DNA from: Acidimicrobiales bacterium
GTDB lineage: Bacteria > Actinomycetota > Acidimicrobiia > Acidimicrobiales > SHLQ01
Direction of reading: 5' to 3'
Length of the DNA: 64,000 nucleotides
NCBI GenBank assembly: GCA_020628865.1
Contig: JAHDEJ010000002.1
Span: forward strand, 62,001-126,000
The notes below the pieces were generated by a model, which was not told the origin of the DNA, searched no databases, and saw only the letters and a program-made list of their open reading frames with translations. A program made the translations under genes and the position numbers. Positions 5,121 to 59,915 of the stretch are shown here, piece by piece (positions within the stretch are counted from its first letter, which is position 1; every line of letters begins with the position of its first letter).

Positions 5121-6308
5121 ATGAGCGGATTGGACAAGAACACCGTTGCCGGCTTCACCGACGTCGACATGGACAACGACGTCAACAGCGACAACGTCAC
5201 GACGTTGACGGACACCGACACGAACACCAACACCAACACCGAGACGACCACGACGAACGTCGCGGACACCGATCTCAACTTTGATGCCAGCCAGGACAAC
5301 GACGAGATCAACAGCCGCAACCAGGACAACGACACCACGACGACCCAGATCCAGGACAACGACACCAACGTCGACATCGAGGCCAACCAGGACAACGACA
5401 ACATCCAGGACAACGACGAGATCAACAGTCGCAACCAGGACAACGACACCGAAGTCAACATCGATGCCAGCCAGGACAACGATGACATCGACATCAACAG
5501 CAACAACACCACGACAACCACGACCACCACGAACATCACCGACAACTCCCAGACCGTCGCTGCTGACGACGGTGGCGTTGCCGCCGGCGGCAACATCGAG
5601 GGCCAGGTGAACACCGGCGTGGTCGACGGCGTGATGGGTGGCGACAACCAGACGATCGACGGCAACGTCGGCGACGGCAACATCAGCCTCGACAACGTGT
5701 CCGGCAACGTCGCCATCGGTGGCAACGTCAACGAGGTGTCGGCCGATGGTGGCGGCAACGCCAACCTGGGCGGCGTGCAGAACGTCGTCGACAGCGGCGG
5801 CGGCGACGTGCAGAACGTCCTCGGCGACGGCAACGAGGTCACCGGAGACCAGACGGTCACGATGGAAGGCGGCGCCGGCGGCGGAGGCGACGGCGGCCCG
5901 ACCGCCATCAACTTCGGCGACAACTCCGTCCTGAACACGGTCGAGGACAACTCGGACAACTCGGTCAACGACAGCTTCAACACCGACAACTCGATCAACG
6001 ACTCGTTCAACGATCAGTCCGACAACTCGACGGAGTTCAACGACAGCTTCAACGACAACTCGGACAACTCGATCAACGACTCGCTGAACGACCAGTCCGA
6101 CAACTCGATCAACGACTCCCTCAACGATCAGTCCGACAACTCGATCAACGACTCCCTCAACGAGACGCTGACCGACAACTCGGTCGACATCAACGAGTCC
6201 TTCCAGGACAACTCGGAGGACGTCGACATCGTGGACATCGACTCGGCGATCAGCCAGCAGATCACCGACCTCGACATCGACAACGACGCCATCGACATCG
6301 ACATCTGA
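5121..6308 (+). CDS. Asp/Asn/Ser-rich repeat protein sharing a core module with the IniB-like protein
   Basis: A 395-residue very acidic, low-complexity protein with no Cys, signal peptide or membrane segment. Three zones are visible. The N-terminal third repeats QDNDEINSRNQDND-type units. The middle (about residues 165-260) is Gly/Asn/Val-rich with regularly spaced GG, GDGN and VTGDQT motifs that also occur in the protein at 12277-13173. The C-terminal third has DNSINDSLNDQS repeats and ends in alternating Asp/Ile. The regular polar spacing suggests disordered or beta-solenoid segments. ATG at 5121 has AAGGAG eight bases upstream. Its promoter carries the same motif as the IniB-like and Hsp70-like genes. 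Function unknown; a scaffold or surface role is inference. Confidence 0.85.
   Translation: MSGLDKNTVAGFTDVDMDNDVNSDNVTTLTDTDTNTNTNTETTTTNVADTDLNFDASQDNDEINSRNQDNDTTTTQIQDNDTNVDIEANQDNDNIQDNDEINSRNQDNDTEVNIDASQDNDDIDINSNNTTTTTTTTNITDNSQTVAADDGGVAAGGNIEGQVNTGVVDGVMGGDNQTIDGNVGDGNISLDNVSGNVAIGGNVNEVSADGGGNANLGGVQNVVDSGGGDVQNVLGDGNEVTGDQTVTMEGGAGGGGDGGPTAINFGDNSVLNTVEDNSDNSVNDSFNTDNSINDSFNDQSDNSTEFNDSFNDNSDNSINDSLNDQSDNSINDSLNDQSDNSINDSLNETLTDNSVDINESFQDNSEDVDIVDIDSAISQQITDLDIDNDAIDIDI
6063..6170 (+). repeat. In-frame 36-base tandem repeat (three units)
   Basis: Units begin at 6063, 6099 and 6135 with GACAACTCGATCAACGACTC and encode the 12-residue unit DNSINDSLNDQS. The first two are near identical and the third diverges at its end. 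Shorter DNS/DSFND units precede them. This is likely a site of repeat-number variation. Confidence 0.85.
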
Positions 6309-6337
6309 GTCATCAGTACCTGATCACAATCGACGCT

Positions 6338-6374
6338 TCGGGCCCGGGGATCACCCCGGGCCCGAGCTCGTTTT
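6338..6374 (+). terminator. Rho-independent terminator after the repeat-protein gene
   Basis: Perfect 12-bp GC stem TCGGGCCCGGGG / CCCCGGGCCCGA with loop ATCA (6338-6365), followed by GCTCGTTTT. It starts 30 bases after the stop at 6308. Confidence 0.85.
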
Positions 6375-6392
6375 GCATTACAACTTGATGAC

Positions 6393-6444
6393 GAAGGACA
6401 ACCAGTCGCCTTTTCGGACGCAGAAAGACAACTGGTTGTCTTTC
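6393..6444. promoter_or_regulatory. Two 30-bp-spaced operator-like repeats upstream of the LuxR-type gene
   Basis: GAAGGACAAC at 6393-6402 and GAAAGACAAC at 6423-6432 are exactly 30 bp apart, about three helical turns. The second is completed to a perfect inverted repeat, GAAAGACAAC-TG-GTTGTCTTTC (6423-6444). They lie just upstream of a good promoter for the gene at 6498. An operator, perhaps autoregulatory, is the favoured reading. A terminator is an alternative because a T-rich run follows the palindrome. Confidence 0.55.
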
Positions 6445-6460
6445 TTTTTCCTGTTCCCGC

Positions 6461-6489
6461 TTGAGCCGCCCCGCACCGGTGCATAGGTT
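6461..6489 (+). promoter_or_regulatory. Sigma-70-type promoter of the LuxR-type gene
   Basis: TTGAGC (6461-6466), 17-base spacer, TAGGTT (6484-6489). The GTG start is at 6498, where transcription would begin, so the mRNA is probably leaderless, which fits the absence of a Shine-Dalgarno sequence. Confidence 0.6.
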
Positions 6490-6497
6490 CGCTCTCG

Positions 6498-8960
6498 GTG
6501 GGTACAACACGATTGACGACGTTGCCGGGATTGGACCGGATCGGAACCACGAGCGCTGACGGCGCCGCCGGGACGATCAGCCTGATCATCGGTCCGGGGG
6601 GAAGCGGCAAGACCCGTGTCCTCGACGACCTCGCCGCCCGTGGCGCCGATCGAGGCCACCGTGCACTCGTGTTGGCCGGCTCGATGGTCGGCACGCCGCT
6701 GGCCATTCCCGACACGGTCGAGGCAGATGTCCTTCTCGTCGACGACGCCCATTTCCTCGACGCAGCAGAGACCACCGAACTCCTGCGGCTCGTCGAAGAC
6801 CGCAGCCGGTCCTTCGACATCTGCGTCGCGATGCGCCCGATTCGTGAGCACCTCCTGCTCGGACGGCTCGTCGAAGTCGCCGAGCGCCGCGGCACGCTCA
6901 TCGAGCTCGGCCCCTTCTCCGACGACGAACTGGCCGGTGCGCTCGCCGAGCACGTCACCGACGGCGTCGACGGCGCCGTCTTCGACAAGGTGCGCGAGCT
7001 CACCCATGGTCAGCCCCTCATCGTCGACCGCCTCGTGTCCGGCTGGATGACCGACGGACGCATCGAGCGTGGCCGGCTCGTGGCCGAACCGGACCCGGCG
7101 CCCGTCGCCCTCGAACGAGCCCTGCTCGGGCCCGTCCGTCAGCTCGATGAAGCGGCTCGCCACCAACTCGCCGCCCTCGCCCGGACGACCGTGGACCAGC
7201 CGAACGGCCACACGAGCCCCGCGTTCGACCAAGATCCGACCCAGCTGATCGACCACGGCCTCGTCGGTGCGGACGGCATGCCCCCGGCGGTGGCGCACAC
7301 GGTGCTCCGCCTCCTCTCCCCCGCCGATCTCGCAGCCGGCGAGCTGCTGCTCGCCGAGACCCTCGCTCGGGGCGGCGCCACGCCGCTCGAGATTGCGGAA
7401 CGCTTCTGGGGCACCGCCGAACCCGGCCAGAACGCCACCGCAGCGTGGATCGCCGCCGGCGACGAGCTGCTCGCCACCGATCCGGCCGCTGCGGCGGAAT
7501 GGTACGGCCGAGCCAACCAGACAGAACCAACCTCGGACACGCTGGCACGACGGGCCGTCGCCCTGGCCGCTGCCGGGGACGGCGCGGGCGCCAACCACGC
7601 CATCGCCGACGTGCTCCGCCAGGACCCCCGCAACGCGCTGACCCTCGGCGCCGGCGCCCAGCTGGCAGCCGGGCAGGGCCGCTGGGACGAGGCGGCCGAA
7701 CTCCTCGAAGCGATCGACCATCATCCTCGCTGGCCGCTCGGTCTCGTCGATGCGCTCAACGACGCCACCCTCCTGCTCTCCGGGCGGACCGCGTCCACCT
7801 CGACCAGCAACGCCGGGGCCGACCCGACCGCTTCGCTGGTGCAGGAAGCCGTCGATGCGCTGCGGCTCTCCCTCGAACACATCCCGGACACCACCGCCCT
7901 CACGGACTCCATCCGGGCGCTGGCCACCCGAGCGGGCGACGTGAACGTCACGCCCGACCTTCCGGTCAACCCCTTCGAGATCGGCGCAGCCACTGCGTTG
8001 GCGGCAGGCGAACTCGCCATGGCCGATCTCCTGCTCGATGCTGCCGGAAGCTCCGTATCCGGCAACATCGGGGCGGCGTTGCACGACTGGCTCTCGGTCA
8101 GAGCCGGTGGCACGCCGTCACGTTCGGACCGGGGCGACTCGCTCGCCGAGTCCCCCTATGTCGGCCTGCTCGACCTGGCCGCCGACGCCGTCGACGCTCG
8201 CCGGGCCGGCGACGTGGCCGCAAGCTCCGCTGTGCTGGACAAGCTCCGGCAGGTTGTTGCGCTCGCACCGATCGATGCGCTGACCTTCGACGCTGCCAAC
8301 GAGCTGCTGATCCTCGCAACTCGATTCGGTTCCCGAACGGTGGCCGAGACGCTGCGCCAACGGGTCCTGCGTTTCCTCGCCGATGCCGGCGCTCCGCCCC
8401 TGTGGACGGCCCGCTATCTGTGGTCGCGGATCGAGACGGCTGCCGCCATCCGAGACGTGGACATGGCGAACGAGGCGGCGACGGAGCTGAAGGAGCTCGG
8501 ACCAGTCGGGTCGCGGCTCGACCCGCTCATCACCGCCGCCACCACCTGGGTCGAGATCCTCGAGGAGCGTTGCACCGTCGTCGACGTCAAGGCCGCTGCA
8601 GCCGAGCTCGAGACCAACGGATACCAGTGGGAGGCCGCGCACCTCGTCGGTCAGGCGGCCATCCGCATGCAGAACGCAGCGGAAGCCAAGGACCTGCTCA
8701 ACCACGCTCGAGAGCTTCGGGGCACCACGGCGAGCCCGAGCGGAACCGAAACGGCAAGCCCGTCCGGGCTCTCCGACCGGGAAATCGAGGTCGCCGAGCT
8801 GATTCTCGATGGGCACTCCTACAAGGAGATCGGGTCCCGCTTGTTCATCTCCGCCAAGACCGTTGAGCACCACGTGTCGCACATCCGACGCAAGCTCGAC
8901 GCAACCGGCATCCCCCGGGCCGCCTTCCTCGCAGCACTGCGCAGCGACCTCGGTCGCTGA
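6498..8960 (+). CDS. Large ATP-binding LuxR-family (LAL/STAND-type) transcriptional regulator
   Basis: An 820-residue cytoplasmic regulator. The N-terminal NTPase has Walker A GPGGSGKTR (about residues 33-41) and a Walker B-like VLLVDDAHF. A long alpha-helical Ala/Leu-rich middle resembles TPR-type sensor repeats. The C-terminus is a LuxR/GerE helix-turn-helix (about 757-817) beginning LSDREIEVAELI and including SAKTVEHHVSHIRRKL. The gene converges on the dynamin-like operon, 3 bases from its last stop. In mycobacteria a large AAA/LuxR-type protein (Rv0339c, IniR) lies beside iniBAC and controls it; this is from memory. The shared layout makes this gene the prime candidate for the locus regulator. 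Its binding site is not proven. Confidence 0.9.
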   Translation: MGTTRLTTLPGLDRIGTTSADGAAGTISLIIGPGGSGKTRVLDDLAARGADRGHRALVLAGSMVGTPLAIPDTVEADVLLVDDAHFLDAAETTELLRLVEDRSRSFDICVAMRPIREHLLLGRLVEVAERRGTLIELGPFSDDELAGALAEHVTDGVDGAVFDKVRELTHGQPLIVDRLVSGWMTDGRIERGRLVAEPDPAPVALERALLGPVRQLDEAARHQLAALARTTVDQPNGHTSPAFDQDPTQLIDHGLVGADGMPPAVAHTVLRLLSPADLAAGELLLAETLARGGATPLEIAERFWGTAEPGQNATAAWIAAGDELLATDPAAAAEWYGRANQTEPTSDTLARRAVALAAAGDGAGANHAIADVLRQDPRNALTLGAGAQLAAGQGRWDEAAELLEAIDHHPRWPLGLVDALNDATLLLSGRTASTSTSNAGADPTASLVQEAVDALRLSLEHIPDTTALTDSIRALATRAGDVNVTPDLPVNPFEIGAATALAAGELAMADLLLDAAGSSVSGNIGAALHDWLSVRAGGTPSRSDRGDSLAESPYVGLLDLAADAVDARRAGDVAASSAVLDKLRQVVALAPIDALTFDAANELLILATRFGSRTVAETLRQRVLRFLADAGAPPLWTARYLWSRIETAAAIRDVDMANEAATELKELGPVGSRLDPLITAATTWVEILEERCTVVDVKAAAAELETNGYQWEAAHLVGQAAIRMQNAAEAKDLLNHARELRGTTASPSGTETASPSGLSDREIEVAELILDGHSYKEIGSRLFISAKTVEHHVSHIRRKLDATGIPRAAFLAALRSDLGR

Positions 8961-8963
8961 GGC

Positions 8964-10442
8964 TCAGCCGGCGGCAATCGTCGCAAACAGTCCTTCGCAG
9001 GTCCGCACCGCCACTCGGGCCGCGGACGCCATCGGACGGGGCGACAGCGGGCTCTCGGCCCGCTCGCGCCACTTGCCGAGTTCTTCGAGCACGGCCGCCT
9101 TCTGCTTGTCGGGACCGGAATCCTCCGGTAGCCCGAGCCGACGGTTCACCTGGGTTCCGGATGCGCCGAGGAGCCGTTCCAACTCGGCAAGGCCGTCGCC
9201 GGCGATGTTGAGACTCCCCGAGCGAATGTCGTTGAGTACTCGTAGCTCGGTGAACTCATGGGCGCCGGCGATCGTGCGCTCGATCCGAGCGTCGAGGGCG
9301 TCCGACGTTTGATGTTCGGCCACCAACCGCTGCATGGCGAGGAGCGCCGAGCGCGCCTTCAACGTGTCTCGGCGGGCACCGAAGACATCGAAGAGCGTGC
9401 CTCGGAGCTGATCGATTCCACTCTCCACCCGCAGCATCGACGCCAGGCCCGCGGTGGAGCCGACATCGCCGGTGCGAATCGAGTGGACGGCGAGACGGAC
9501 CCCGAAGAGCCCGAGCCGATGCAGCAGCGCCCGACGCTGGGCCTCGTCGAGGCCGATGTCGGTCGGTGCATTCACGAACCGATCGGTCGTCAACATCAGC
9601 CGGTCGGTTTCGGCCTCTGAGGCCTCAGCCAGCTTCACCAGGCGGCGGTATTCGAGTTCACGCAGCCCGGTCCCCGCCTGGGCAAGGAGCCCGGCCACAG
9701 GAATCACGGTCTGCACCAGGCGCCGAAGTCGCGGGTCGTCGCCGTACCGTCGGGCGATGCGCGCGGCCGAGCTCATGGCGTCGAGGCGGCCCACGGCGAC
9801 CTCGTCGGCCCGGGAGAGCACGGCGACGCAATTGATCGGCGACGGTTGTGCGTACTCGTCCTCGTGGAAGCTGTGCAGAAACGACACGTCCGTGGCGTGC
9901 AGGTGCCGCAGGAGGTAGATGACCGCGTCGGACGGTGTCGACTTCTCGTCGTCGGGCGCGAGGAAGCTGTGGCTTCGAGCGGAGATGTCGGTGGACACGG
10001 ATGCGATACCCGGTGTGTCGATGAGGGTCATCTCTTCGAGGGTCTTGACCGGCCACTCGACCGTGAGCCGTTCGATCTTGGTGATGTCCCGCTCGCCGAG
10101 GTCGACGTCGATGGCGCCGTCTTCCCGCTCGAACGGGAGCTGCGCCGTGCTGCCATCGCGTCCGGTCATCTCGACCCGGTAGACGAGACCATGCTGGTAC
10201 CAGGTGACGAGCTTCGTGCACTCACCTGCATCGGTCGGGGCGAGTTCATCTCCGACGAGCGCGTTGAGGAGTGTCGACTTGCCGGCCTTGACCTTGCCCG
10301 CGATCGCCACACGAAGCGGCTGTTCGGCGCGGCTCGAGATCTCGGCGAGCTCCGGGGCCAACGATGGGACCTCCCTCGCAATCTGCTGACCCAGGTCCAG
10401 AACCTCGGTCAACAGGGCGGAGCGTCGTGGCATCTCACTCAT
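8964..10442 (-). CDS. Dynamin-family GTPase, IniC-like
   Basis: A 492-residue GTPase with P-loop GKVKAGKST (residues 49-57), a conserved Thr/switch region (GECTKL), G3 motif DTPGIAS near residue 141 and a G4-like LSRADE. The C-terminal half is helical, as in bacterial dynamin-like proteins, without an obvious membrane segment. Its ATG overlaps the stop of the preceding dynamin gene by four bases (ATGA), so the two are translationally coupled. The tandem pairing matches IniA/IniC of mycobacteria, where IniA is reported to mediate membrane fission. A heteromeric membrane-remodelling role is inferred from family and pairing. Confidence 0.9.
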   Translation of the reverse strand: MSEMPRRSALLTEVLDLGQQIAREVPSLAPELAEISSRAEQPLRVAIAGKVKAGKSTLLNALVGDELAPTDAGECTKLVTWYQHGLVYRVEMTGRDGSTAQLPFEREDGAIDVDLGERDITKIERLTVEWPVKTLEEMTLIDTPGIASVSTDISARSHSFLAPDDEKSTPSDAVIYLLRHLHATDVSFLHSFHEDEYAQPSPINCVAVLSRADEVAVGRLDAMSSAARIARRYGDDPRLRRLVQTVIPVAGLLAQAGTGLRELEYRRLVKLAEASEAETDRLMLTTDRFVNAPTDIGLDEAQRRALLHRLGLFGVRLAVHSIRTGDVGSTAGLASMLRVESGIDQLRGTLFDVFGARRDTLKARSALLAMQRLVAEHQTSDALDARIERTIAGAHEFTELRVLNDIRSGSLNIAGDGLAELERLLGASGTQVNRRLGLPEDSGPDKQKAAVLEELGKWRERAESPLSPRPMASAARVAVRTCEGLFATIAAG

Positions 10443-12271
10443 CCGGCAGCTCCGATCGCCTCGACCTGGGCCGAAACCTTGGGAATCTCATTCAGGATGT
10501 TCTGCACGATCTTCTTGCGCTTGTCCCGTGACTCCTGGGTGGAGCGAAGCGCCTGCTGGGCCGCAGCCAGCGACTCGGATGTGGACGTACTGAGCTCCTC
10601 GGCCCGTTCCATGAAGTGATCCCGCAGCTGTCGATTGACGTGCCGCAGCGCATCCCGAGCCTCTTTGGAGGCCACGAACTGCGCCTCATCGGTGTACTTG
10701 CGAACCGCCTGCTTGGCCTGCAACCGCCGCTGCGTGAGCGCACGATCGCGCTCTTCCTTGAGCGTCTTGCGACCGACGATTCCCGCCACCGCCGGCGCGA
10801 CCCATGCGGCCAGCGCGATCGGTGCTGCCGCACCGAGCACACCCACCATCACCATGCCGCCCATGCCACCGCGCAGAAGCGTGAAGCTGTTGCCGAGCGC
10901 ACCCTTCTTCTCCGCGATTCCCGAGTCGTCGAACTCCGGCGCGGTGCGGAACGCCGACGGATCGGAGATCTCGAGCCGGTCGGTGATGGCCCGGTGGTCG
11001 GCGTCGAAATGCGAGGAGACCCGCTCGCCCAGCTCGACCGAACGTTGATGCAACAGGGTGTAGTTCTGCACGATTGCGGTGTTCACCCGATCGGAGAGCC
11101 ACGCGCTGAAGTCGTCCCACGTCTTGGCCGGGTCGTTCGCCTCGACCGCCGCCTCGGCGTCCTTCACGATCTCGCGGAAGCGTGCCCGGAGGTCGTGCTC
11201 GACGTCGGAGTTGAGGTCGGTCGTGCCATCGGAGAGCGACTGCTGCCAGCGGGCGGCCTGATTCCGCAGATTCTGCGCTCGCTCCTTCTGCATCTCGAGT
11301 TCCCGCACCTGTCGGGCGGACTCCTCCGGATCGCTCAGTACGGCGAGCTCCGACTCGAGTTGCGGCTTCAGCTCGTTGACGATCTCCCGCAGACTCGACG
11401 AGTACTCCTCGCGTGCCGACGACCGGGTGTTGGCGACGAGCGTGTCCCGCATGTGCGAGATGAGCTCGGAGTAGCCGGACTCGGCGTTCAGTTCTGCGTC
11501 GTTGGACTCGATTGCCATCCGCCGCAGCACGGTCGACACCGGAATGATCGGCACGTCGAGCCCGCGGCGCTCGAGGTGCCCCTTGTTCAGCTCGACGATG
11601 CGTCGCCACTGGGGGTAGAAGTCGATCTTCGGCATCACGAGCGTGACTCGCTGACACATCGAGATGACGACGTCGAGGAAGTCGAGTTCCGGCGCCGTCA
11701 GCTCCTGTGAGGCGTCCGAGACGAACAGCACGGCGTCGGCCGATGGCAACACGCTCATGGTGAGCGCGCTGTGGGTGGATCCGAGTCCGCCGACACCGGG
11801 CGTGTCGATCAGGGCGAGCCCACCAGCAAAGAGCTTGCGCGGGAGCCCGACCCGCACGAGCGCGACCGTGTCGGCGTCGGTTGCCGTGGGCGGCTCGCTC
11901 ACGTAGCTCGGAATGTCCTCGAACTCGATCTCGCGCATCCGGCGCTTGGTCTCGTCTTCCTCGAGCTTGTAGACGACTGCGACCATCGGTTCATCCGCAT
12001 TGCGGATCTCGAGCGGCTTCGCTGTGGCCACGTCGTCGTCGACCGGGCACAACGGGGCGTTGGCGATGGCGTTCACCATCGAGCTCTTGCCCATCTTGAA
12101 CTCGCCGACGACCGCCACCGTGCAGGTCTGATCGGCGAAGCGGTTTGCGGCCGCGTGCGTGCGCTGGTTGAGATCGGGCCGATCCGCCGCGTCGGCGAGG
12201 CGAAGAATCGCCTTCGCCGGCTGCAGGTCGTTGGTGTCGGTCGAACCGCCGGAAGTGGACGTCGCAGTCAT
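10439..12271 (-). CDS. Dynamin-family GTPase with membrane-insertion segment, IniA-like
   Basis: A 610-residue GTPase with P-loop GEFKMGKSS (56-64), G3 motif DTPGVGG near residue 155 and G4-like MPKIDF. Long coiled-coil-forming helices follow. A hydrophobic Gly/Ala/Val segment at about residues 468-498 looks like a membrane-inserting paddle or hairpin, as in bacterial dynamins. A basic helical C-terminus follows it. The gene begins 5 bases after the IniB-like stop and overlaps the IniC-like start, giving the order IniB-like, IniA-like, IniC-like, the same as mycobacterial iniBAC. Likely function: nucleotide-driven membrane remodelling or repair at the cytoplasmic membrane. Confidence 0.92.
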   Translation of the reverse strand: MTATSTSGGSTDTNDLQPAKAILRLADAADRPDLNQRTHAAANRFADQTCTVAVVGEFKMGKSSMVNAIANAPLCPVDDDVATAKPLEIRNADEPMVAVVYKLEEDETKRRMREIEFEDIPSYVSEPPTATDADTVALVRVGLPRKLFAGGLALIDTPGVGGLGSTHSALTMSVLPSADAVLFVSDASQELTAPELDFLDVVISMCQRVTLVMPKIDFYPQWRRIVELNKGHLERRGLDVPIIPVSTVLRRMAIESNDAELNAESGYSELISHMRDTLVANTRSSAREEYSSSLREIVNELKPQLESELAVLSDPEESARQVRELEMQKERAQNLRNQAARWQQSLSDGTTDLNSDVEHDLRARFREIVKDAEAAVEANDPAKTWDDFSAWLSDRVNTAIVQNYTLLHQRSVELGERVSSHFDADHRAITDRLEISDPSAFRTAPEFDDSGIAEKKGALGNSFTLLRGGMGGMVMVGVLGAAAPIALAAWVAPAVAGIVGRKTLKEERDRALTQRRLQAKQAVRKYTDEAQFVASKEARDALRHVNRQLRDHFMERAEELSTSTSESLAAAQQALRSTQESRDKRKKIVQNILNEIPKVSAQVEAIGAAG

Positions 12272-12276
12272 GCAGC

Positions 12277-13173
12277 TCAGGCGTCCAACTCGATCGCCGC
12301 TTCGTCGGCGGCAATCTCCATGGCCTCGGCCTGCAGGTCGGCGCTGTCGACCACCTGCGCTTCGAGCGGCTCGTCGAACACCGGCTCCTCGACGGGAGCG
12401 GCCGTGTTGTTCACGTTGGCCGTCTGATCGCCGGTGACGTCGTTTGCGTCCCCGACGGTGGCCTGGACATCGCCCCCAGCGTCGATTCCGACCTGCGTGC
12501 CGGAGCCGACGTTGGCGTCGCCGCCGGCCTCCACATTGGTCGCATCGCCGCCCACGGCAAGCGCATCGAACTCCGAATCGTTGACGAGCACGTTGCCGTC
12601 GCCGATCGCCGAGTCCTCGATCGCCACGTCGCCGCCGGCCTGCACACCATCGACCTGGCCGGTGTTGACGGCCGAATCGGACACGTCGCCGCCGACCACC
12701 ACTGCGCCGTCGTCGCCGACGTTGGCCGTGTTCGACACTTCCTGGTCGAAGTCGACATCGCCCTCGGCGAGAATCGTCGTGTTCACGCTCTGATCGACGA
12801 ACTGGTCTCCTTCGTCGATGTTGGTCACGTTCGTGACCTCGGTGACGTGTCGGACGACGGTCACCTGGTCCGGGGCGGCAGCTTCCTGCGTGATGATCTG
12901 CTGCACCACGGGTGCCGGCTGATTGGCGATGGCCTCACGCAGCGGCTCGAGTTGTGCCTGCTGTTGCACCGTCAGTGACTCGCTGAGCTGGGCGATCGCC
13001 TGCTGCAGATCCTCGGGCGTCACGCCCTCGTACCCGGCGGACTCGATCGCCTCGAGCGAATCGGCGATCAGATCGACCGCCTCATCCTGTGCCGCATTGG
13101 GATCCGGGACTTCGTCCGTGAGCAGGTCCCAGATGATGTCCCCGATGGCCTCGAGATCTTCCTGTCCAACCAT
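12277..13173 (-). CDS. IniB-like acidic beta-repeat protein, first gene of the dynamin operon
   Basis: A 298-residue acidic protein. Residues 1-60 are helical. Residues about 60-95 are Gln-rich. Residues about 110-270 are Gly/Val/Asp/Asn-rich with regular GGD spacing, including VNTGQVDGV, IGDGN and VTGDQT, closely resembling the middle of the 5121-6308 protein. This looks like a beta-solenoid or adhesive scaffold. There is no signal peptide and no Cys. The ATG at 13173 has GGAGGAG upstream at good spacing. It leads the operon with both dynamin GTPases, in the position of IniB, although sequence similarity to mycobacterial IniB is only in character (repetitive, Gly-rich). Its promoter carries the shared motif. 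Confidence 0.85.
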   Translation of the reverse strand: MVGQEDLEAIGDIIWDLLTDEVPDPNAAQDEAVDLIADSLEAIESAGYEGVTPEDLQQAIAQLSESLTVQQQAQLEPLREAIANQPAPVVQQIITQEAAAPDQVTVVRHVTEVTNVTNIDEGDQFVDQSVNTTILAEGDVDFDQEVSNTANVGDDGAVVVGGDVSDSAVNTGQVDGVQAGGDVAIEDSAIGDGNVLVNDSEFDALAVGGDATNVEAGGDANVGSGTQVGIDAGGDVQATVGDANDVTGDQTANVNNTAAPVEEPVFDEPLEAQVVDSADLQAEAMEIAADEAAIELDA

Positions 13174-13198
13174 GTCGGTCTCCTCCTCGTCACCCCAA

Positions 13199-13244
13199 AC
13201 GCTACGAGTCCGCGTCCCCCATGGAATCGGGGACAACCCCTATT
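13199..13244 (-). promoter_or_regulatory. Regulon motif site 2 and -10 for the dynamin operon
   Basis: On the minus strand, AATAGGGG (13244-13237), TTGTCC, CCGAT (13230-13226). TAGCGT follows with its first base at 13204, 40 bases after the motif start, identical in geometry to site 1. The preceding GACCCCCGGGGG also matches site 1. It lies just upstream of the ATG at 13173. Confidence 0.65.
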
Positions 13245-13273
13245 CCCCCGGGGGTCCAATCGGGCGCCAGCCG

Positions 13274-13909: not shown

Positions 13910-13913
13910 CGAT
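13895..13913 (+). promoter_or_regulatory. Regulon motif site 3 upstream of the first Hsp70-like gene
   Basis: AATAGGGG (13895-13902), TGTTCA, CCGAT (13909-13913). No -10 is seen at the 40-base spacing. A TAGATT at 13963-13968 could serve the gene at 14053. The site also overlaps the longest candidate start of the minus-strand IniB-N-like gene, so it may act on both directions. Confidence 0.5.
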
Positions 13914-14052
13914 CCACCCCCGGTCCCGACGATCCGACTCCACATGGGGCCTTCAGCGCGGCTAGATTCGGCGCCGCGGCCCGCTCCCCACCCCGGGAAA
14001 CGGCCGGAATGGCTGGACCCCGGCACCACGGGGTGGAAAAGGGACGGAACTG

Positions 14053-16143: not shown

Positions 16144-16156
16144 CCAACAGGGTTCG

Positions 16157-16202
16157 AATAGGGGAAACCACCGATGGGGGTTTCCCGGCCGTCGAAGAGA
16201 CT
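16157..16202 (+). promoter_or_regulatory. Regulon motif site 4 upstream of the Hsp70-SUMF1 operon
   Basis: AATAGGGG (16157-16164), AAACCA, CCGAT (16171-16175). GAGACT begins 40 bases after the motif start and keeps the A2/T6 positions of a -10. Downstream gene starts at 16271. Confidence 0.55.
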
Positions 16203-16270
16203 CTCACCAGGCAAGGTCGCCGTTTTCTGATGCACCGCATCGCGGCGACTGCGGAAATGGGAGAGCGAAC

Positions 16271-19102
16271 GTGTCCTACGACCTGGGGATCGACATCGGT
16301 ACCAGCTACAGCGCGGCGGCGGTCCGGAGGGAGAGCGGCGCGGTCGACGTCGTGGGTCTGGGGTCGATCTCCGACTCGATGCCGTCCGTGGTCTACCTCT
16401 CGACCGACGGCTCCATTCTGATCGGCGACGCAGCGAACCGCCGCTCGGTCACCGATCCGCAAGGCGCCGCCCGCGAGTTCAAGCGGCGCCTCGGTGACTC
16501 GACCCCCATCATTCTGCGGACGTCGCCGTTCTCGGCCGAGCAGCTCTACGCACGCATGCTCGAGCACGTCGTGCAACGGGTCATCGAACGTGAACAGGGT
16601 CCGCCGCGCTCCACGGTCGTCACCCATCCCGCCAACTGGGGTCCCTACAAGCTCGAACTGTTCCAGCAGGCCCTGCGCATGTCGGATCTCCCCGCAACCG
16701 GCCTCACCGAGCCGGCGGCCGCCGCATGGGCCTACGGGGCCGAGGACCGGGTGCCGGTCGGCACCAAGCTCGCCGTTTACGACCTCGGCGGTGGCACCTT
16801 CGATGCGGCCGTTCTGGAGAAGACGTCGACCGGCTTCGAACAGCTCGGTGAAACCACCGGGATCGAGCACCTCGGCGGTGTGGACTTCGATGCAGCCGTG
16901 CTGCAATGGGTCAAGGCGAGCATCGGGGACGACTGGCCGAGCGACCCGGACGATCCGCAGCTGCCGACGTCGATGTTGCACCTGCGTCGCTCGTGCAGCG
17001 AAGCGAAAGAACTGCTGTCCTCAGAACAGGACGTGACCATTCCGGTTCTGCTGCCGGGGGTCGACACGACACTGACGCTGACCCGCCCCGAGTTCGAGAA
17101 CATGATCCGCCCGAAGATCGACGACTCGATCACCTCGCTCGAATCGGCGCTCGCGTCCGCAGGTGTCTCGGGCAGCGAGACGACGATCGTCCTCGTCGGC
17201 GGCTCGTCCCGAATTCCACTGATTCGCGAAGAACTCGAGCACCGGTTCGGTCCCGTCGTGGCCAACGACGTGGACCCGCTGTACGCCATCGCCCGTGGGG
17301 CCGCCGTCGCCGCCAGCGTGCAATCGGGAGCGCATCACCCGACCGGGTCGGCCGCACCGGTTGCACCGGCAGAACCGAGCGCTCCGGAAGTTGTGGACAC
17401 GATCCCACCGGCCGCGGCAGCGCCCGTCCCTGAAGCGGTCGAAGCTCCCGCACCGGCGCCTGCACCTGCGCCTGCGCCCGCTCCCGAGCCGGAACCGTCG
17501 GCCCCGGTCGCCGCGACACCCCCGGTGGACCTCCGTTCCGAGCCTGAAACGGCACCAGCGATGGCGGCCGCATCCGACGGCGCCGGCGGACTGCCCGGCT
17601 GGTTCATCCCGGCTGCTCTGGGCGCCCTCGTCGTGCTGGGTGCGCTCGGCTTCCTGATCTCACAAGGGGGTGGCGACGACGATTCCGACGTGGAGGTCGC
17701 CGGCAACGCCGAAGTTGCCGACGAGACCGGCCTGGACGAGGACGAGACCGAAGACAACGACGATGGCGACGACGCCGCTGCGTCGGACACCGCCATGTCG
17801 GCCGCCTCGGCGGAAGGCATGGTCGAGGTGACCGGCGGCGAGTACACGCTGGGAACCGATCGCCCCGAAGCCAACGATTCCGAGACCATCACCCAAACCG
17901 GGGTGAACGTCTCCCGATTCTTCATCGACACCACCGAGGTCACGAACGACCAGTGGAAGACCTTCGTCGACACCGCCGGCGCTGCGCTCCCCGCCTCCTG
18001 GGGACGATCCGGCTTCGCGGCGGACCGCGGTTCGCATCCGGTGGTCGGCGTGAACTGGGAGTGGGCGGTCGCCTACTGCGAAGCGCTCGACAAGCGACTG
18101 CCGACGGAGACCGAGTGGGAGGTCGCCGCACGCGGTGCCGAAGCTCGCGTCTACCCGTGGGGTGACGACGTCGCCTACGGCGGGCTCCCCGACACCGACG
18201 ACACGTACCCGGTGGCCTCGATTGCGACGAACGTGAGCCCCGTCGGTGCCTTCGACATGGTCGGCAACGCCTGGGAATGGGTGGCCGACACGTACGACGA
18301 TCGGGTCAACCCGGCATTCCGGGTCCTGCGTGGCGGCCAGAACGGCTACCTCCGCGAGACCATGACCCGCCTCCCCGTCGACCCCCAGCGTTCCAATGCG
18401 TTCACGGTCGCCGGCTTCCGGTGTGTGGCCGACGAGGTGGATGCGTCGATCCCGGCGCTCCAGTTCCGGCCGGACTACACGGTCCCGGACGTGTCGAACG
18501 AGCCGATCGAGGTCAACCTTCCCGAAGGCGTCCTCATCCAGGACTCGTTCACGGATTCGACCTCCGGTTGGATCGAGGAGACCCAGGAAGACCGCCGATT
18601 CGGCTACCACCCGAACGAGTTCTTCCATCTCGAGACAAAGGCGCCGAACACCGAGGTCATCGCGATCAGCCCGGTCGCGGCCGAAGCCGGCCGCCCGCTC
18701 GAGGTGCGGGCATCGGCGTTCGTCGAACCGAACAACACGAATCCCGACGGCACGTTCCTGTACGGCGTGATCATCGGCAACGACTCGATGGGCGCCAACG
18801 TGTCCTTCCTCGTCGATCCTCGCCAGAACCTGTTCTCGGTTCGTCAGCGGCAGGCGGACGGAACCTACAGCGTGTTGGAGGACGTCCAGCGGTCGATTCC
18901 CGACGACGTCGAGCTGACCGTGAGCCGGGATGGCGACCGGTTCGAGTTCCGGCTGAACGGTGCCGTGGTCACGACCCGAACCATCCAGAACATCATGGGT
19001 ACGGGAGCCGGGCTGGTGGTCCTCTCGGACGCCGACTCGACGAAGGTGCACATCCACTACGAGGACTTCGCGGTTTCCTATCTCGATGAGGCGGGCTCAT
19101 GA
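16271..19102 (+). CDS. Membrane-anchored Hsp70-family ATPase with SUMF1-fold and beta-sandwich ectodomains
   Basis: A 943-residue protein. The Hsp70-type nucleotide-binding domain (about 1-350) has DIGTSYSAAAV, VYDLGGGTFDAAVL and LVGGSSRIPLI; no substrate-binding domain. Then an Ala/Pro linker, a membrane helix (about 440-462), an acidic linker and a formylglycine-generating-enzyme/SUMF1 fold (about 516-722) with FFIDTTEVTNDQW, RLPTETEWEVAARG, YPWGDD and GNAWEWV. A C-terminal concanavalin-like beta-sandwich (about 755-935) follows. The SUMF1 domain lacks the active-site Cys pair of true FGE: the usual Cys segment reads RGGQNGYLRETMTR. It is probably a binding domain rather than an enzyme. Start GTG. 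Its stop overlaps the next ATG (ATGA). Confidence 0.9.
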   Translation: MSYDLGIDIGTSYSAAAVRRESGAVDVVGLGSISDSMPSVVYLSTDGSILIGDAANRRSVTDPQGAAREFKRRLGDSTPIILRTSPFSAEQLYARMLEHVVQRVIEREQGPPRSTVVTHPANWGPYKLELFQQALRMSDLPATGLTEPAAAAWAYGAEDRVPVGTKLAVYDLGGGTFDAAVLEKTSTGFEQLGETTGIEHLGGVDFDAAVLQWVKASIGDDWPSDPDDPQLPTSMLHLRRSCSEAKELLSSEQDVTIPVLLPGVDTTLTLTRPEFENMIRPKIDDSITSLESALASAGVSGSETTIVLVGGSSRIPLIREELEHRFGPVVANDVDPLYAIARGAAVAASVQSGAHHPTGSAAPVAPAEPSAPEVVDTIPPAAAAPVPEAVEAPAPAPAPAPAPAPEPEPSAPVAATPPVDLRSEPETAPAMAAASDGAGGLPGWFIPAALGALVVLGALGFLISQGGGDDDSDVEVAGNAEVADETGLDEDETEDNDDGDDAAASDTAMSAASAEGMVEVTGGEYTLGTDRPEANDSETITQTGVNVSRFFIDTTEVTNDQWKTFVDTAGAALPASWGRSGFAADRGSHPVVGVNWEWAVAYCEALDKRLPTETEWEVAARGAEARVYPWGDDVAYGGLPDTDDTYPVASIATNVSPVGAFDMVGNAWEWVADTYDDRVNPAFRVLRGGQNGYLRETMTRLPVDPQRSNAFTVAGFRCVADEVDASIPALQFRPDYTVPDVSNEPIEVNLPEGVLIQDSFTDSTSGWIEETQEDRRFGYHPNEFFHLETKAPNTEVIAISPVAAEAGRPLEVRASAFVEPNNTNPDGTFLYGVIIGNDSMGANVSFLVDPRQNLFSVRQRQADGTYSVLEDVQRSIPDDVELTVSRDGDRFEFRLNGAVVTTRTIQNIMGTGAGLVVLSDADSTKVHIHYEDFAVSYLDEAGS

Positions 19103-21840
19103 ACCATCAACTCGGTATCGACCTCGGTACCACCTTCACGTCGGTCGCCCGGGCGGAGGGCGGCTCGATCGAGGTGGTGTCGCTGGGCGAACGCCAGGCG
19201 GCGCCACCAGCCATGATCTTCGTGGAGCCGGACGGCACGTTCATCCACGGCGACATGGCCTACCGTCGGGGCGCGGCGGAGCCCGACCGGCTGATCTCGG
19301 ACATCAAGCGCCGGCTCGGCACATCGACGCCGTTCCTGGTCGATGGCACGAACCACCGGGCGGAGACGCTCATGGCCGCACACCTACAGTGGGCCTATGA
19401 CCGGGCCGTGGATGGCCGCAGCGCGCCCGACGCCGTGGTGCTGACGCAGCCCGCATGCTGGTCGGACAAGCAGTTGCTGGCCTTCCGTCGGGCGGTCGAG
19501 TCCACAACGGTGCCGAACGTCTCGTATCTGACCGAGCCCCATGCTGCCGGCGCGTTCTACAGCCGCCAAGCTGCGCACAACGTCGGTGACGTCGTCGGCG
19601 TGTACGACCTCGGAGGTGGCACGTTCGACGCGGCGGTGCTTCGCCGAACACCATCCGGCTACGAGATCCTCGGAGCGCCGGCGGGCGAATCCCACCTCGG
19701 CGGGCTCGACCTCGACCTGACCATGCAGCACCTGGTCCAGACGAAGCTCGGACGAGCGTGGACGGAAGCAGAACTGGCCGGCGGACCCGCCTTCGAACGC
19801 TCGCTCCTCGCCTTGCAGCGTGAATGCACGGCAGCGAAGGAGATGCTCTCCGATGCGGAGTCGACGGTGCTCCCGCTCGTGTTGCCCTCCGGAGCGATGG
19901 ACGTCGAAGTGACCCGACGAGAGTTCGAGCAGTACATCGACGACGCCATCACGGAATCCGTCGGCGTGTTTCGCCGGGTGCTGCAGTCGGCCGACGTCGC
20001 ACCCTCCGAGCTCTCCGCAGTGCTGATGGTCGGCGGTTCGACCGCCGTTCCCCTGGTCCAGCAACGGGTGCGATCCCTGGTCGGTGACGACGTACTCATG
20101 TTCACGACCGATCCCCGCAATGCGGTGGCCAAGGGCGCGGCGATCACGGCGAACGAACTCGTCGGCGGCGTTGCTGCGGCCGCGGCAGCGCCCGCAGCAG
20201 CCCCGGCAGAGCCGGTGCCCGCTCCTGCACCCGAGCTCGATCTCCGAGCTCCCGCAGCGGCTGCGGCAGCTGCTCCGGTGACCGAGTCCGGCTCCAACCC
20301 CCTGGCGATGCGCGGCGTGCAGGTGCTGCTCGGCGTGCTGGTTCTCGGCGTGCTCGGTTTTCTCCTGTTCCGTGGCGGCGACGACGATCCCGCCACGACC
20401 GCAGACGCCGCAGTCGACCAGACGGACGTCGCCGGCGCGGTGGAGACGACCGCGGCGGCCAACCCGTCCGCCGCAGAACTGCTCGAAGAGGTCGAGGTCG
20501 AGATCCCCCTCGCTTCCGCCGAAGGCATGTCGGCCATCCCGGCCGGCGATTGGACGCTTGGCGTGGAGACCCCGGGTCGGGAAGCGCTGTCGACCCGAAC
20601 GGTGTCGCTGGGCGCCTTCAGCATCGACACCACCGAGGTCACCAACGCGGCCTACCTGCCATTCGTGCAGCTCGAGGGCGCACCGGCTCCCTCCGGCTGG
20701 TCGGGCGGACAGTTCGCCGACGGAGAAGAGGACTTTCCCGTCGTCGGCGTCGAGTGGGCCTGGTCGCAGGCGTACTGCGCTGCACTGGGCAAGCGACTTC
20801 CGACCGAGGCGGAATGGGAAGCGGCAGCCCGCGGCACCGAAGCCGGCCTCTATCCCTGGGGTTCCGACGAACCGCTGGTGGACTTCGATGCCCGAGGGCG
20901 CGAACCGGTGGGCACGGTCGAGGCCAATGTCAGCTCGCTCGGCGTTCAGGACACGGTGGGCAGCGTCTGGGAATGGGTGGGCGACCCGATCGAGCTCACC
21001 CCAGAAGCCTCACAGGTCGTCCGCAAGGGCGGCGAGAACGGCCGGGTCGACGAAGACCTCGGCGCGGCGATCCGTCAGGTCGTGCAGCAAACCAACCAGG
21101 CGACCATCGATCAGACCGGCTTTCGGTGTGCGGCCGACGAGACCGACCCCGACACGCCAGCGGGCGAGTTCATCAATGACCTCGTCGCCCCCAGAGAGCT
21201 CGCGGCAGCCACCCGCTCCAGCGAGGTCAACGACAGCTTCGTCGAGGACGAGTTCGAAGACGTCAACAGCGGCTGGTTCGACGTGACCGCAGATGGCTGG
21301 CGCATCGGTTACCACGCCCCGACCTGGTATCACGTCGAGGCCACCACCCCGAACGCACAGGTCATGGCCCTCGGCGGGTACAGCTACGACAACGTCGCCG
21401 TCGAGACGTCGGTGTTCGTCGAGAGCACGGACACCTCGGATGGCCAGTTCCGCTACGGCCTGGTCTTCCGGGCGAGCGGTGGCCTCGAGCCGTCCGCGAC
21501 CGGCTACGGCAACGCCCGACCCATCGACTTCTACGCCTTCGTCATCAACCCCCGCAGCCAGACCTGGCAGCTGATCCACGAGGACGAGCTCCCCTACCGG
21601 GTGATCGCCGAGGGCCCGCTGCCCCCGGGAGTCAACGGGTTCGACCCGAACCGTCCGGACACGATTCGGGCGGAGATGGTCGACGTGACCATCACGTTGT
21701 GGGTGAACGGGCAGGAGATCACGAGCGTCGACACCCGGGGATTCCACCCCGCCGGCGACGTCGGGTTCTTCCTGGAGACCTTCGACGAGACGAAGGCCCA
21801 CATCCACTACGAGAACATGTTGATCACCCCGCTCGGCTGA
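19099..21840 (+). CDS. Second Hsp70-TM-SUMF1-beta-sandwich protein, paralogue of the preceding gene
   Basis: A 913-residue protein with the same architecture: nucleotide-binding domain (about 1-355; DLGTTFTSVAR, VYDLGGGTFDAAVL, LMVGGSTAVPLV), Ala/Pro linker, membrane helix (about 405-427), SUMF1 fold (about 473-680; IDTTEVTNAAY, KRLPTEAEWEAAARG, YPWGSDE, GSVWEWV) and a C-terminal beta-sandwich (about 710-913) ending near AHIHYENM. The SUMF1 active-site Cys pair is again missing. The ATG overlaps the previous stop by four bases, so the paralogues are made together and may form a complex. The ectodomain beta-sandwich is of the type seen after receptor kinases and other surface sensors; ligand unknown. 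Confidence 0.9.
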   Translation: MNHQLGIDLGTTFTSVARAEGGSIEVVSLGERQAAPPAMIFVEPDGTFIHGDMAYRRGAAEPDRLISDIKRRLGTSTPFLVDGTNHRAETLMAAHLQWAYDRAVDGRSAPDAVVLTQPACWSDKQLLAFRRAVESTTVPNVSYLTEPHAAGAFYSRQAAHNVGDVVGVYDLGGGTFDAAVLRRTPSGYEILGAPAGESHLGGLDLDLTMQHLVQTKLGRAWTEAELAGGPAFERSLLALQRECTAAKEMLSDAESTVLPLVLPSGAMDVEVTRREFEQYIDDAITESVGVFRRVLQSADVAPSELSAVLMVGGSTAVPLVQQRVRSLVGDDVLMFTTDPRNAVAKGAAITANELVGGVAAAAAAPAAAPAEPVPAPAPELDLRAPAAAAAAAPVTESGSNPLAMRGVQVLLGVLVLGVLGFLLFRGGDDDPATTADAAVDQTDVAGAVETTAAANPSAAELLEEVEVEIPLASAEGMSAIPAGDWTLGVETPGREALSTRTVSLGAFSIDTTEVTNAAYLPFVQLEGAPAPSGWSGGQFADGEEDFPVVGVEWAWSQAYCAALGKRLPTEAEWEAAARGTEAGLYPWGSDEPLVDFDARGREPVGTVEANVSSLGVQDTVGSVWEWVGDPIELTPEASQVVRKGGENGRVDEDLGAAIRQVVQQTNQATIDQTGFRCAADETDPDTPAGEFINDLVAPRELAAATRSSEVNDSFVEDEFEDVNSGWFDVTADGWRIGYHAPTWYHVEATTPNAQVMALGGYSYDNVAVETSVFVESTDTSDGQFRYGLVFRASGGLEPSATGYGNARPIDFYAFVINPRSQTWQLIHEDELPYRVIAEGPLPPGVNGFDPNRPDTIRAEMVDVTITLWVNGQEITSVDTRGFHPAGDVGFFLETFDETKAHIHYENMLITPLG

Positions 21841-21864
21841 GCGGGCCGCCAACCCGGCTCTGGT

Positions 21865-21893
21865 CTGACAACCAGGGCGAATTTTCCTAGAAT
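21865..21893 (+). promoter_or_regulatory. Sigma-70-type promoter of the ECF sigma gene
   Basis: CTGACA (21865-21870), 17-base spacer, TAGAAT (21888-21893): one mismatch from consensus in each hexamer. Transcription would start near 21900. That rules out the GTG at 21895 as a start and favours the ATG at 21934. Confidence 0.7.
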
Positions 21894-21933
21894 CGTGCAT
21901 CTGCGGGGCGACCTGCGGGCGTATCCCTGGGGA

Positions 21934-22512
21934 ATGGCACTCTTGGCAACTTCTGAACTGAGAACCGAGGACACGGCGCACTCGCTGGCCGTGGCAGAGC
22001 TCGAGCGAGCCTTTGCCACTGGTCCCGAGTCGTTGTTGCGTGACGCGTACGACCTGTTCGGGTCGCTCGTGTACTCGCTGTGTCGCCGATCCGTCGACGA
22101 CGCGGCTGCGGCCGACATCACCCAGGAAGTCTTCATCGCTGCGTGGAAGAACCGTCACCGGTTCGACCCTGCCCGCGGTGGTTTGGCTCCCTGGCTGACC
22201 GGCATTGCTCGGAACAAGGTCATCGATCACTTCCGAGCGCGGGGGCGGGAAGATCGACGTGTGGAACAAGCCAAGCACGCCTTCATCGAAAGCCCGGGGG
22301 AACTCGAGGACGTTGCCTTGCGCATGCTCCTTGTGGACGCCATCGACACGCTTCCTGAGCGTGCGCAGACCATCATCTCGATGGCGTTCTTCGAAGATCT
22401 CACTCACGTCGAAATCTCGGCACGGACCGGCATTCCGCTCGGCACCGTGAAGAGCGACATTCGCCGAAGCCTCGAACGGCTTCGCCACGGACTGGGGTAT
22501 GCCCATGGCTGA
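21934..22512 (+). CDS. ECF-type RNA polymerase sigma factor
   Basis: A 192-residue sigma-70 family protein with region 2 (DITQEVFIAAWKN through WLTGIARNKVIDHFR) and region 4 (LPERAQTIISMAFFEDLTHVEI and GTVKSDIRRSLERLR), and no regions 1 or 3. The length is typical of ECF sigma factors. The ATG at 21934 is chosen because the promoter just upstream would start transcription at about 21900. The last codons overlap the start of an RskA-like anti-sigma gene. The pair sits directly behind the Hsp70-SUMF1 genes, suggesting but not proving that it reads envelope status for this locus. Confidence 0.93.
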   Translation: MALLATSELRTEDTAHSLAVAELERAFATGPESLLRDAYDLFGSLVYSLCRRSVDDAAAADITQEVFIAAWKNRHRFDPARGGLAPWLTGIARNKVIDHFRARGREDRRVEQAKHAFIESPGELEDVALRMLLVDAIDTLPERAQTIISMAFFEDLTHVEISARTGIPLGTVKSDIRRSLERLRHGLGYAHG

Positions 22513-23167
22513 CATCGAACTGAAGGACTGGGTCGAACTCAGTCGTTCCGTCACGGATGAGGATCGAGAGCGAACGGCTCCGCCTCCAGACCTCTGGACC
22601 CGCATCGAGGCGGGCTTGGGCGACGCCACCGCGCCGTCGGCCACGTCCGAAACGCTCACGGCCGACGACCACGCCCTGCCGTCCGAGCCGACCCCGGTGA
22701 TCGACCTCACCCAGGAACGCACCCGGCGCGCACCCCGTGCTCGCCGTCGGGTTCGCCGATACGCGGCCATGGCCGCAGCGGCGGCGGCCACCGTCGTCGT
22801 GCTCGGCGTCTCGGCCATCATCGGCCAGGAAGACACGAGCTCCTACATCGCGCAGGCCACCAATGCCGAGCTGCCGGAAGCCTTCGAGGGCACTGCGGTG
22901 GCCTCGGTGAATTCCGATGCCACACAGATCTCGCTCGAGTTCTCGTCCGACCTGCCGTCGGCCGAACCGGTCGAGCTGTGGCTGATCAAGCCGGACCTGT
23001 CCGACATGGTTTCGCTCGGCCTCGTGCAGGACGACGGCACCTTCGTCGTTCCCGAGGGCTTCGACGTCAGCGAGTACTCGGTCGTCGATCTCTCGATCGA
23101 GCCGAACGATGGGGATCCGACCCACAGCGGCCGCAGCATCCTGCGCGGTCAGCTGCAGTCCACCTGA
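22499..23167 (+). CDS. RskA-like membrane anti-sigma factor
   Basis: A 222-residue single-pass protein. The N-terminal cytoplasmic segment (1-85) includes a short helical region beginning DWVELSRSV and a basic patch before a membrane helix (about 87-110). The outer part (about 115-220) matches the anti-sigma-K (RskA) C-terminal domain, ending with LSIEPNDGDPTHSG-type spacing. A classical zinc HxxxCxxC anti-sigma motif is absent. It overlaps the ECF gene by 14 bases, as usual for sigma/anti-sigma pairs. Release would presumably need regulated proteolysis in the membrane; this is family knowledge, not shown here. Confidence 0.88.
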   Translation: MPMADIELKDWVELSRSVTDEDRERTAPPPDLWTRIEAGLGDATAPSATSETLTADDHALPSEPTPVIDLTQERTRRAPRARRRVRRYAAMAAAAAATVVVLGVSAIIGQEDTSSYIAQATNAELPEAFEGTAVASVNSDATQISLEFSSDLPSAEPVELWLIKPDLSDMVSLGLVQDDGTFVVPEGFDVSEYSVVDLSIEPNDGDPTHSGRSILRGQLQST

Positions 23168-58049: not shown

Positions 58050-58094
58050 GATGGAACGAGTGTAGATCGGCGAGCGCACGCGCTCGCAGCCCAC

Positions 58095-59903: not shown

Positions 59904-59915
59904 TGTGTTCCCTTC

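Follow-up and report, generated by a model that had tools for sequence, protein, structure and literature searches.

Genes for membrane-spanning Hsp70 proteins beside an iniBAC-type dynamin locus in an Acidimicrobiales bacterium and across actinobacteria

The closest described system to the locus reported here is the mycobacterial iniBAC operon. According to the accessible parts of the papers cited in this paragraph, IniR is the activator of iniBAC, an iniB* gene has been reported (Boot et al. 2017, PMC5760070), and the iniBAC promoter is the one that ethambutol and isoniazid induce most strongly and specifically (PMC5760070). IniA from M. smegmatis carries out GTP-dependent membrane fission in vitro (PMC6715688), and IniA/IniC of M. 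tuberculosis have been tied to vesicle release (Gupta 2023, as cited in PMC11832169). In M. smegmatis a dnaK-like gene lies beside iniR, which is a single passing remark (PMC5760070). Beyond this remark, no mention of an Hsp70 partner of iniBAC was found in our search of the open-licence literature, nor in the accessible parts of PMC13413693, PMC11832169, PMC6715688 and PMC7159879. Here we describe a stretch of 64,000 nucleotides from an Acidimicrobiales bacterium (the window; G000:C106:62001-126000 of a 5.36-Mb genome, G, C and L being our labels for genomes, contigs and loci), in which an iniBAC-like dynamin locus adjoins three genes for Hsp70-type proteins with a transmembrane (TM) helix.

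The first-pass annotation of the window listed two dynamins, IniB-like proteins, a LuxR-type regulator and three Hsp70-TM-ectodomain ATPases, and this gene list was borne out by Pfam and NCBIfam scans and TM calls. One correction concerns the first gene, which starts at ATG 5121 within a longer open reading frame (ORF). The genes of the block are as follows (NBD, nucleotide-binding domain):

5121-6308, plus strand: iniB-like gene 1, an Asn/Asp-rich repeat protein
6498-8960, plus strand: IniR-like STAND ATPase with a LuxR/GerE DNA-binding domain (GerE, 8e-15)
8964-10442, minus strand: IniC-like dynamin GTPase (Dynamin_N, 1.5e-11)
10439-12271, minus strand: IniA-like dynamin GTPase (Dynamin_N, 3e-20), with a 4-bp overlap with iniC
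12277-13173, minus strand: iniB-like gene 2, with a helical N-terminal part and GDGAV/GGDV repeats (putative ATG at 13173)
13274-13864, minus strand: IniB_N-domain acidic protein (putative start; the ORF runs to 14239)
14053-16143, plus strand: Hsp70a (HSP70, 6e-55), with NBD, Pro/Ala linker, TM 497-515, Thr-rich stalk and small HxHF ectodomain
16271-19102, plus strand: Hsp70b (HSP70, 3e-50; FGE, 3e-38), with NBD, TM 445-463, FGE/SUMF1-like domain and an unassigned C-terminal domain
19099-21840, plus strand: Hsp70c (HSP70, 2e-40; FGE, 9e-29), with the architecture of Hsp70b, TM 406-424 and a 4-bp overlap with Hsp70b

As the first-pass annotation had also stated, the dynamin part follows the iniBAC order, with IniB, IniA and IniC in succession and overlapping iniA and iniC. 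A profile of 10 IniA relatives matched M. smegmatis IniA (6j72) with an E-value of 3.8e-171 over profile positions 3-580; judged by this alignment, the window dynamin is homologous to mycobacterial IniA over its full length. The IniC-like protein is 43-53% identical to nine relatives adjoining IniA. The IniR-like protein came closest to IniR (NF038181, 131.7 bits against an equivalog cut-off of 750), and by its sequence it is related to IniR, below the curated equivalog threshold and by remote homology.

IniA/IniC, IniB-family proteins, an IniR-like regulator and single-pass membrane Hsp70s form a recurring gene set in actinobacteria. At E<=1e-5, 18 of 148 class genomes contained an IniA relative, and at E<=1e-20 an IniC relative was present in 22 of 396 phylum genomes. 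Apart from the window, these matches and a scan of named genomes (44 loci) gave 65 loci in which a profile recognised IniA, IniC or both. Left out of the counts were L036 and L081 (contig stubs of G103), L090 (on the same contig as L030), L080 (a G123 flank), L076-L079 (weak IniA only) and L115-L125 (other GTPases); the same-genus loci L148-L155 stand outside the 65. A non-DnaK Hsp70 gene lay within about 10 kb of IniA/IniC in 53 of the 65 loci; where both flanks reach 6 kb or more, the figure was 38 of 42. A membrane segment was predicted in 46 of the 65. Since 22 chosen genomes with IniA or IniC gave 69 Hsp70-profile matches at E<=1e-15, of which about one per genome scored as DnaK, we estimate the chance of a non-DnaK match in a 20-kb stretch at about 1%. 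None of the 11 loci of other GTPases (L115-L125) matched the Hsp70 profile, and an iterated profile gave one weak 35-bit match there (L122).

When predicted neighbours of 66 loci were clustered with no families preselected, the families recovered were IniA (57 loci), IniC (53), Hsp70 (53), the IniR-like family (29) and the IniB family, to which iniB-like gene 1 belongs (26); no other neighbour family exceeded 8 of the 66. Because six DnaK genes had entered the Hsp70 cluster, as had false members from L103 and L107 (joined by low-complexity or WD40 parts), and others were missed, profile counts are preferred to cluster counts. The Hsp70 genes may be divergent from iniB, co-directional or convergent, and the link persists through these arrangements. 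Seven lie at most 60 bp from a dynamin gene on the same strand, four of them with 4-bp overlaps (L037, L052, L074, L075). The join had been taken as special to this locus, but it is usual in the sampled actinobacteria, including the Mycobacterium-type loci L062-L068 and L109. IniC and Hsp70 also co-diverge (r 0.69 over 49 loci), which is not used as evidence here because shared species descent gives the same.

The two families also occur together by genome. Among 100 class genomes, taken as a subset of the 148 searched for IniA, 11 had both, three IniA only, one Hsp70 only and 85 neither (Fisher p 3e-11). The three IniA-only genomes have weak IniA matches, and the Hsp70-only genome (G001) has a 256-bit match near the DnaK score. 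With IniA matches of at least 300 bits only, the counts were seven, none, five and 88 (p 5e-8). Within the family (19 genomes; IniA E<=1e-60, non-DnaK Hsp70 above 300 bits) they were seven, none, one and 11 (p 1.6e-4), the Hsp70-only genome, G521, being 73% complete. The genes are adjacent in three of the seven family genomes with both (G000, G519, G523) and about 8 kb apart in G517.

In the window, one cis element marks the promoters of both the dynamin and the Hsp70 halves. This 19-bp element, AATAGGGGWNNNNMCCGAT, was aligned from four TAGGGG sites between block genes, and its copies are:

5026-5044, plus strand: copy 1, 76 bp before the ATG of iniB-like gene 1
13226-13244, minus strand: copy 2, 52 bp before iniB-like gene 2 (iniB2-iniA-iniC)
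13895-13913, plus strand: copy 3, 139 bp before Hsp70a, in the divergent region
16157-16175, plus strand: copy 4, 95 bp before Hsp70b

These are the four exact copies in the 5.36-Mb genome, all in the block and each on the strand of its own gene; the genome scan gave no copy with one mismatch, and its ten other matches all have two mismatches. Exact copies recur in three genomes of the same genus. G523, whose IniA is 83% identical, has them before iniB2-iniA-iniC and before Hsp70b; G520 (IniA 54% identical) has one, before iniB_N-iniB2-iniA-iniC; the near-identical G519 has three. A 16-bp core, TAGGGGNNNNNMCCGA, matched 16 of 155 loci, 13 of them from the window's own or the same genus; in the others (L035, L081, L108), which lie outside the genus, it is located upstream in the iniB/Hsp70 region each time. 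TAGGGG itself was present upstream of divergent Hsp70 genes in 21 of 26 regions, the window's included (46 sites, against a mean of 3.46 and a maximum of 8 in 200 shuffles), and upstream of other genes of the same loci in 10 of 189. The promoter count omits L054 and L072 (no NBD start recognised), and the divergent class omits L081 (no dynamin profile match). Over the whole window TAGGGG occurred 8 times against 5.4 expected, which is not significant, and five of the eight sites are intergenic in the block, given the putative starts. The IniR-like protein is a natural candidate to bind the 19-bp element.

The first-pass annotation held that dynamin and Hsp70-TM genes belong together, and linkage in 53 of 65 loci, co-occurrence and the four-copy cis element in the block agree with this. 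Independent occurrence without shared regulation is the opposite of what was found, as co-occurrence is strong and the element is shared.

In each of Hsp70a, Hsp70b and Hsp70c, an NBD about 350 residues long is followed by a Pro/Ala-rich linker, a single hydrophobic segment and an outside part. After the NBD, Pfam matched no substrate-binding domain, the best HSP70 stretches ending at profile positions 371-379 of 599, and on this ground we rejected the view that they are ordinary chaperones. Lysine and arginine around the TM segment of 48 related proteins numbered 158 before it and 47 after it, with more before than after in 43 of the 48, so the ATPase domain should lie inside (N-in topology). 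The six ATPase residues D8, K70, E147, D171, T176 and D178 are intact in Hsp70a, Hsp70b and Hsp70c; of 56 relatives, 36 keep them all, 19 differ at one or more of them and one lacks a complete N-terminus. Away from the block, G000:C73:22659-23717 encodes another Hsp70 of this type (375 bits); its contig gave no 19-bp element with up to two mismatches.

FGE/SUMF1 domains (Pfam) occur in two of the three window proteins, Hsp70b and Hsp70c, and the closest solved structures to that of Hsp70b are SUMF2/SUMF1. By eye, the FGE catalytic cysteine pair was not seen in either protein and only the last Cys of the catalytic region is present, at what we take to be the position of the motif; these domains are probably not catalytic. 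Such ectodomains had been seen as a defining part of the system, a view that is not supported, since the outside part varies among relatives: it may be an HxHF domain, propeller-like repeats, RCC1-like repeats or a Pro/Thr-rich tail (labels other than FGE and HxHF being our reading of the sequences by eye). The HxHF family is located as follows:

Window 15739-16140, and relatives in L029, L031, L052, L053, L055, L056, L082 and L084: HxHF ectodomain

Its nine aligned members share an invariant HxHF, one further His, a Trp and two Cys, residues that would possibly bind metal. None of the nine matched Pfam, and no PDB match was found at E<=0.001; an AlphaFold2 model has a mean predicted local distance difference test score (pLDDT) of 78.0 and a predicted template modelling score of 0.68.

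The mycobacterial loci deserve separate mention. IniA of L062-L065, L067 and L068 is 67-81% identical to that of L109 (Mycobacterium sp.), the next best loci reaching 47%, and all seven of these loci carry TM-Hsp70 genes adjoining iniAC. ATPase residues (D8, K70, T176 and others) are changed in 14 Hsp70s of mycobacterial, Nocardia, Williamsia and related loci (L062-L068, L097, L104, L106, L108, L109, L113), and also in L060, L098, L105 (two) and L112. The membrane Hsp70s of mycobacteria and their relatives are likely pseudo-ATPases, judging by these substitutions. Six of the 65 loci (L061, L065, L066, L102, L108, L113), all of mycobacterial, Nocardia and Williamsia type, have a genuine DnaK gene at a distance of about 1.5-7 kb from iniA-iniC; these DnaK proteins are 82-100% identical to that of L065.

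Of the other block genes, iniB-like genes 1 and 2 cluster with IniB-type relatives. The first (5121-6308) has no Pfam or NCBIfam match of its own, and the second (12277-13173) no NCBIfam match of its own; a structure model of the second has a mean pLDDT of 56.6 and is usable only for the N-terminal helices, about residues 1-90. The ORF 13274-14239 matched IniB_NTERM (NF038175) at 5e-5 and 23.1 bits, under the cut-off of 40. In the IniB-type alignment, 12 of 17 members, two of them from the window, matched IniB_NTERM and seven matched the Rv0340 IniB-related family. Two of the 17 matched, in their IniB N-terminal regions, an NHLP-related family of ribosomally synthesised and post-translationally modified peptides (RiPPs; best 5e-4), a hint at possible common ancestry of the IniB head and RiPP leader domains. 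A GC-rich hairpin, terminator-like by sequence, is located at 6335-6365 between iniB-like gene 1 and the IniR-like gene. The block is flanked by the following genes (ECF, extracytoplasmic function):

3120-5075, minus strand: PEPCK gene, left of iniB-like gene 1
21895-22512, plus strand: ECF sigma factor, adjacent and probably peripheral
22499-23167, plus strand: RskA-type anti-sigma factor (RskA_C, 5e-14), adjacent and probably peripheral

The first-pass annotation counted the ECF/RskA pair among the defining parts, which is not supported, as only one relative, the near-identical L153, was found to have the pair at this position. Other ECF-like matches adjoin iniC in L037 (E 1e-9) and lie some 9 kb away from it in L059, and the searches that gave them returned no RskA match. 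Elsewhere in the window, 58001-60000 has a marked AT skew (-0.277) compared with the rest.

That the iniBAC part and the TM-Hsp70s make up one functional module is, in our judgement, highly probable. Several observations weigh against the fuller reading set out below. On linkage, four full-context loci have no Hsp70 (L030, L099 from Cellulomonas terrae, L103 from Frankia and L107 from Parafrankia), and none of the weak IniA relatives L076-L079 has one. On co-occurrence, the IniA matches are weak (56-93 bits) in four of the 11 class genomes that have both families, G004 has IniA and Hsp70 on different contigs, the Hsp70 of G516, G518 and G520 (same genus) lies off the IniA contig, those contigs being 7-14 kb, and the tests ignore shared ancestry. 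As to the element, the 19-mer was derived from its own four sites, so its uniqueness in the genome is a description and the relatives are the independent test. There, G523 has no copy within two mismatches before Hsp70a, G517 has two-mismatch copies only, one of them before iniB-like gene 1, and G518 has a two-mismatch copy near iniB-like gene 1 and a one-mismatch copy inside iniR; in the window, none was found before iniR or the ECF gene. TAGGGG was noticed in the upstream set later counted, close relatives included, so the enrichment figures flatter. It shows no clear excess before convergent (1 against 0.6 expected) or co-directional (3 against 1.25) Hsp70 genes, and shared regulation is therefore not general. 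Finally, 19 of 56 relatives have a degenerate NBD, and ATP hydrolysis therefore cannot be a general requirement.

Because of the published fission activity of IniA and the link of IniA/IniC to vesicle release, the module is read as a membrane-remodelling stress response. The best reading is that iniBAC-type fission systems have, as a core part, a membrane-spanning Hsp70-type switch with interchangeable ectodomains. Envelope damage would be sensed, and the IniR-like activator would bind the element and turn on iniB, iniA-iniC and the Hsp70s together. The cytoplasmic Hsp70 domain, connected by a single TM helix to an outside domain that is exchangeable and may bind wall or envelope components, would couple the state of the ectodomain, by ATP binding and hydrolysis, to the recruitment, assembly or release of IniA/IniC at the inner membrane. 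IniA/IniC would then tether or cut the membrane, which would lead to repair or vesicle shedding. In mycobacterial relatives, and wherever else the ATPase residues have been lost, the Hsp70 may serve as an anchor or scaffold only. Surface sensing, ATP-driven signalling, membrane repair, contact with the dynamins and a role for ATP hydrolysis are what we infer. Taken whole, mechanism included, an extended iniBAC-type envelope-stress module is the best explanation of the block, and we hold it somewhat more readily than not. Direct control of the dynamins by a membrane Hsp70 falls a little short of an even chance. Doubtful, and bolder, is the proposal that a TM Hsp70 motor directly controls dynamin assembly and that the mycobacterial isoniazid-response system is a derived form with an ATPase-dead Hsp70 scaffold; here an outside ligand would set the nucleotide state of Hsp70 inside, and IniA/IniC would be loaded on or stripped from the membrane.

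The strongest alternative is that the TM-Hsp70s are independent envelope sensors or scaffolds in an iniBAC stress regulon, with no physical or functional contact with the dynamins. A shared 19-bp element, variable ectodomains and the separate contigs of the two families in G004 are what such a regulon would give, but adjacency that persists through rearrangement, several 4-bp gene overlaps and the co-presence of IniA and Hsp70 across genomes make it unlikely. A conflict or anti-phage system, with dynamins and Hsp70, a STAND regulator and variable recognition domains, is less likely still. GTPase-HSP70 conflict systems have been described in actinobacteria (PMC7159879, accessible parts), the locus is patchy within its genus (7 of 11 genomes, the window's own included), and in PADLOC IniA matched LeoBC (3e-22) and LeoA (7.5e-16), IniC matched LeoA (4e-11) and the IniR-like protein matched mad8 (1e-6). 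However, LeoA and LeoBC are dynamins, so these matches are probably similarity at the level of the family, and the IniA profile matches IniA 6j72 far more closely. No PADLOC match at E<=0.001 was obtained for the Hsp70 or IniB proteins, no recurrent effector family was present among the neighbours, and the accessible text of PMC7159879 nowhere uses the word dynamin. Neutral synteny, with genes together by descent and no functional link, could draw on the DnaK genes near iniA-iniC in six of 65 loci, a sign that old synteny exists here, and on the IniC/Hsp70 co-divergence that plain descent also yields, but it is very improbable given that order and strand change repeatedly, that further neighbour families reach 8 of 66 loci at most and that the shared element is confined to the block.

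The recurrence of this partnership in many actinobacteria, mycobacterial relatives included, points to an overlooked component of a cell-envelope stress system that is poorly understood, and the conserved membrane-spanning partner is a concrete candidate for a missing sensor or anchor of iniBAC. It would also be a case of an Hsp70 ATPase domain that serves as a receptor-linked switch and not as a chaperone. On the bolder proposal above, ATP- and GTP-driven machines would be coupled across the envelope.

Compared with known systems, the GTPase-HSP70 conflict systems (PMC7159879, accessible parts) likewise have neighbouring GTPase and Hsp70 genes, and some of their Hsp70s are without a peptide-binding domain, but their GTPases are of the GAP1-N type with GrpE/DnaJ/FNIII and are not called dynamins there. 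Like FGE/SUMF1 sulfatase-modifying enzymes, Hsp70b and Hsp70c contain a Pfam FGE domain, but here it is joined to an Hsp70 domain and differs in the catalytic-region cysteines noted above. Like DnaK/Hsp70 chaperones, the window Hsp70s have an NBD with catalytic residues, but they carry a TM helix and an ectodomain in place of any matched substrate-binding domain. Hsc70 acts in eukaryotic membrane traffic, and the Hsp70 switch proposed here would be parallel to it but distinct. The dnaK-like gene of M. smegmatis is also an Hsp70-family gene in the iniBAC region, although the remark on it, in the part of PMC5760070 that was accessible, is made without a TM helix, ectodomain, co-occurrence or regulation. 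With mycobacterial iniBAC and IniR the window shares the IniB-IniA-IniC order, the overlap of iniA and iniC and a nearby IniR-like STAND/LuxR regulator, and it differs from them in its three TM-Hsp70 genes, its three IniB-type genes and an element common to both halves.

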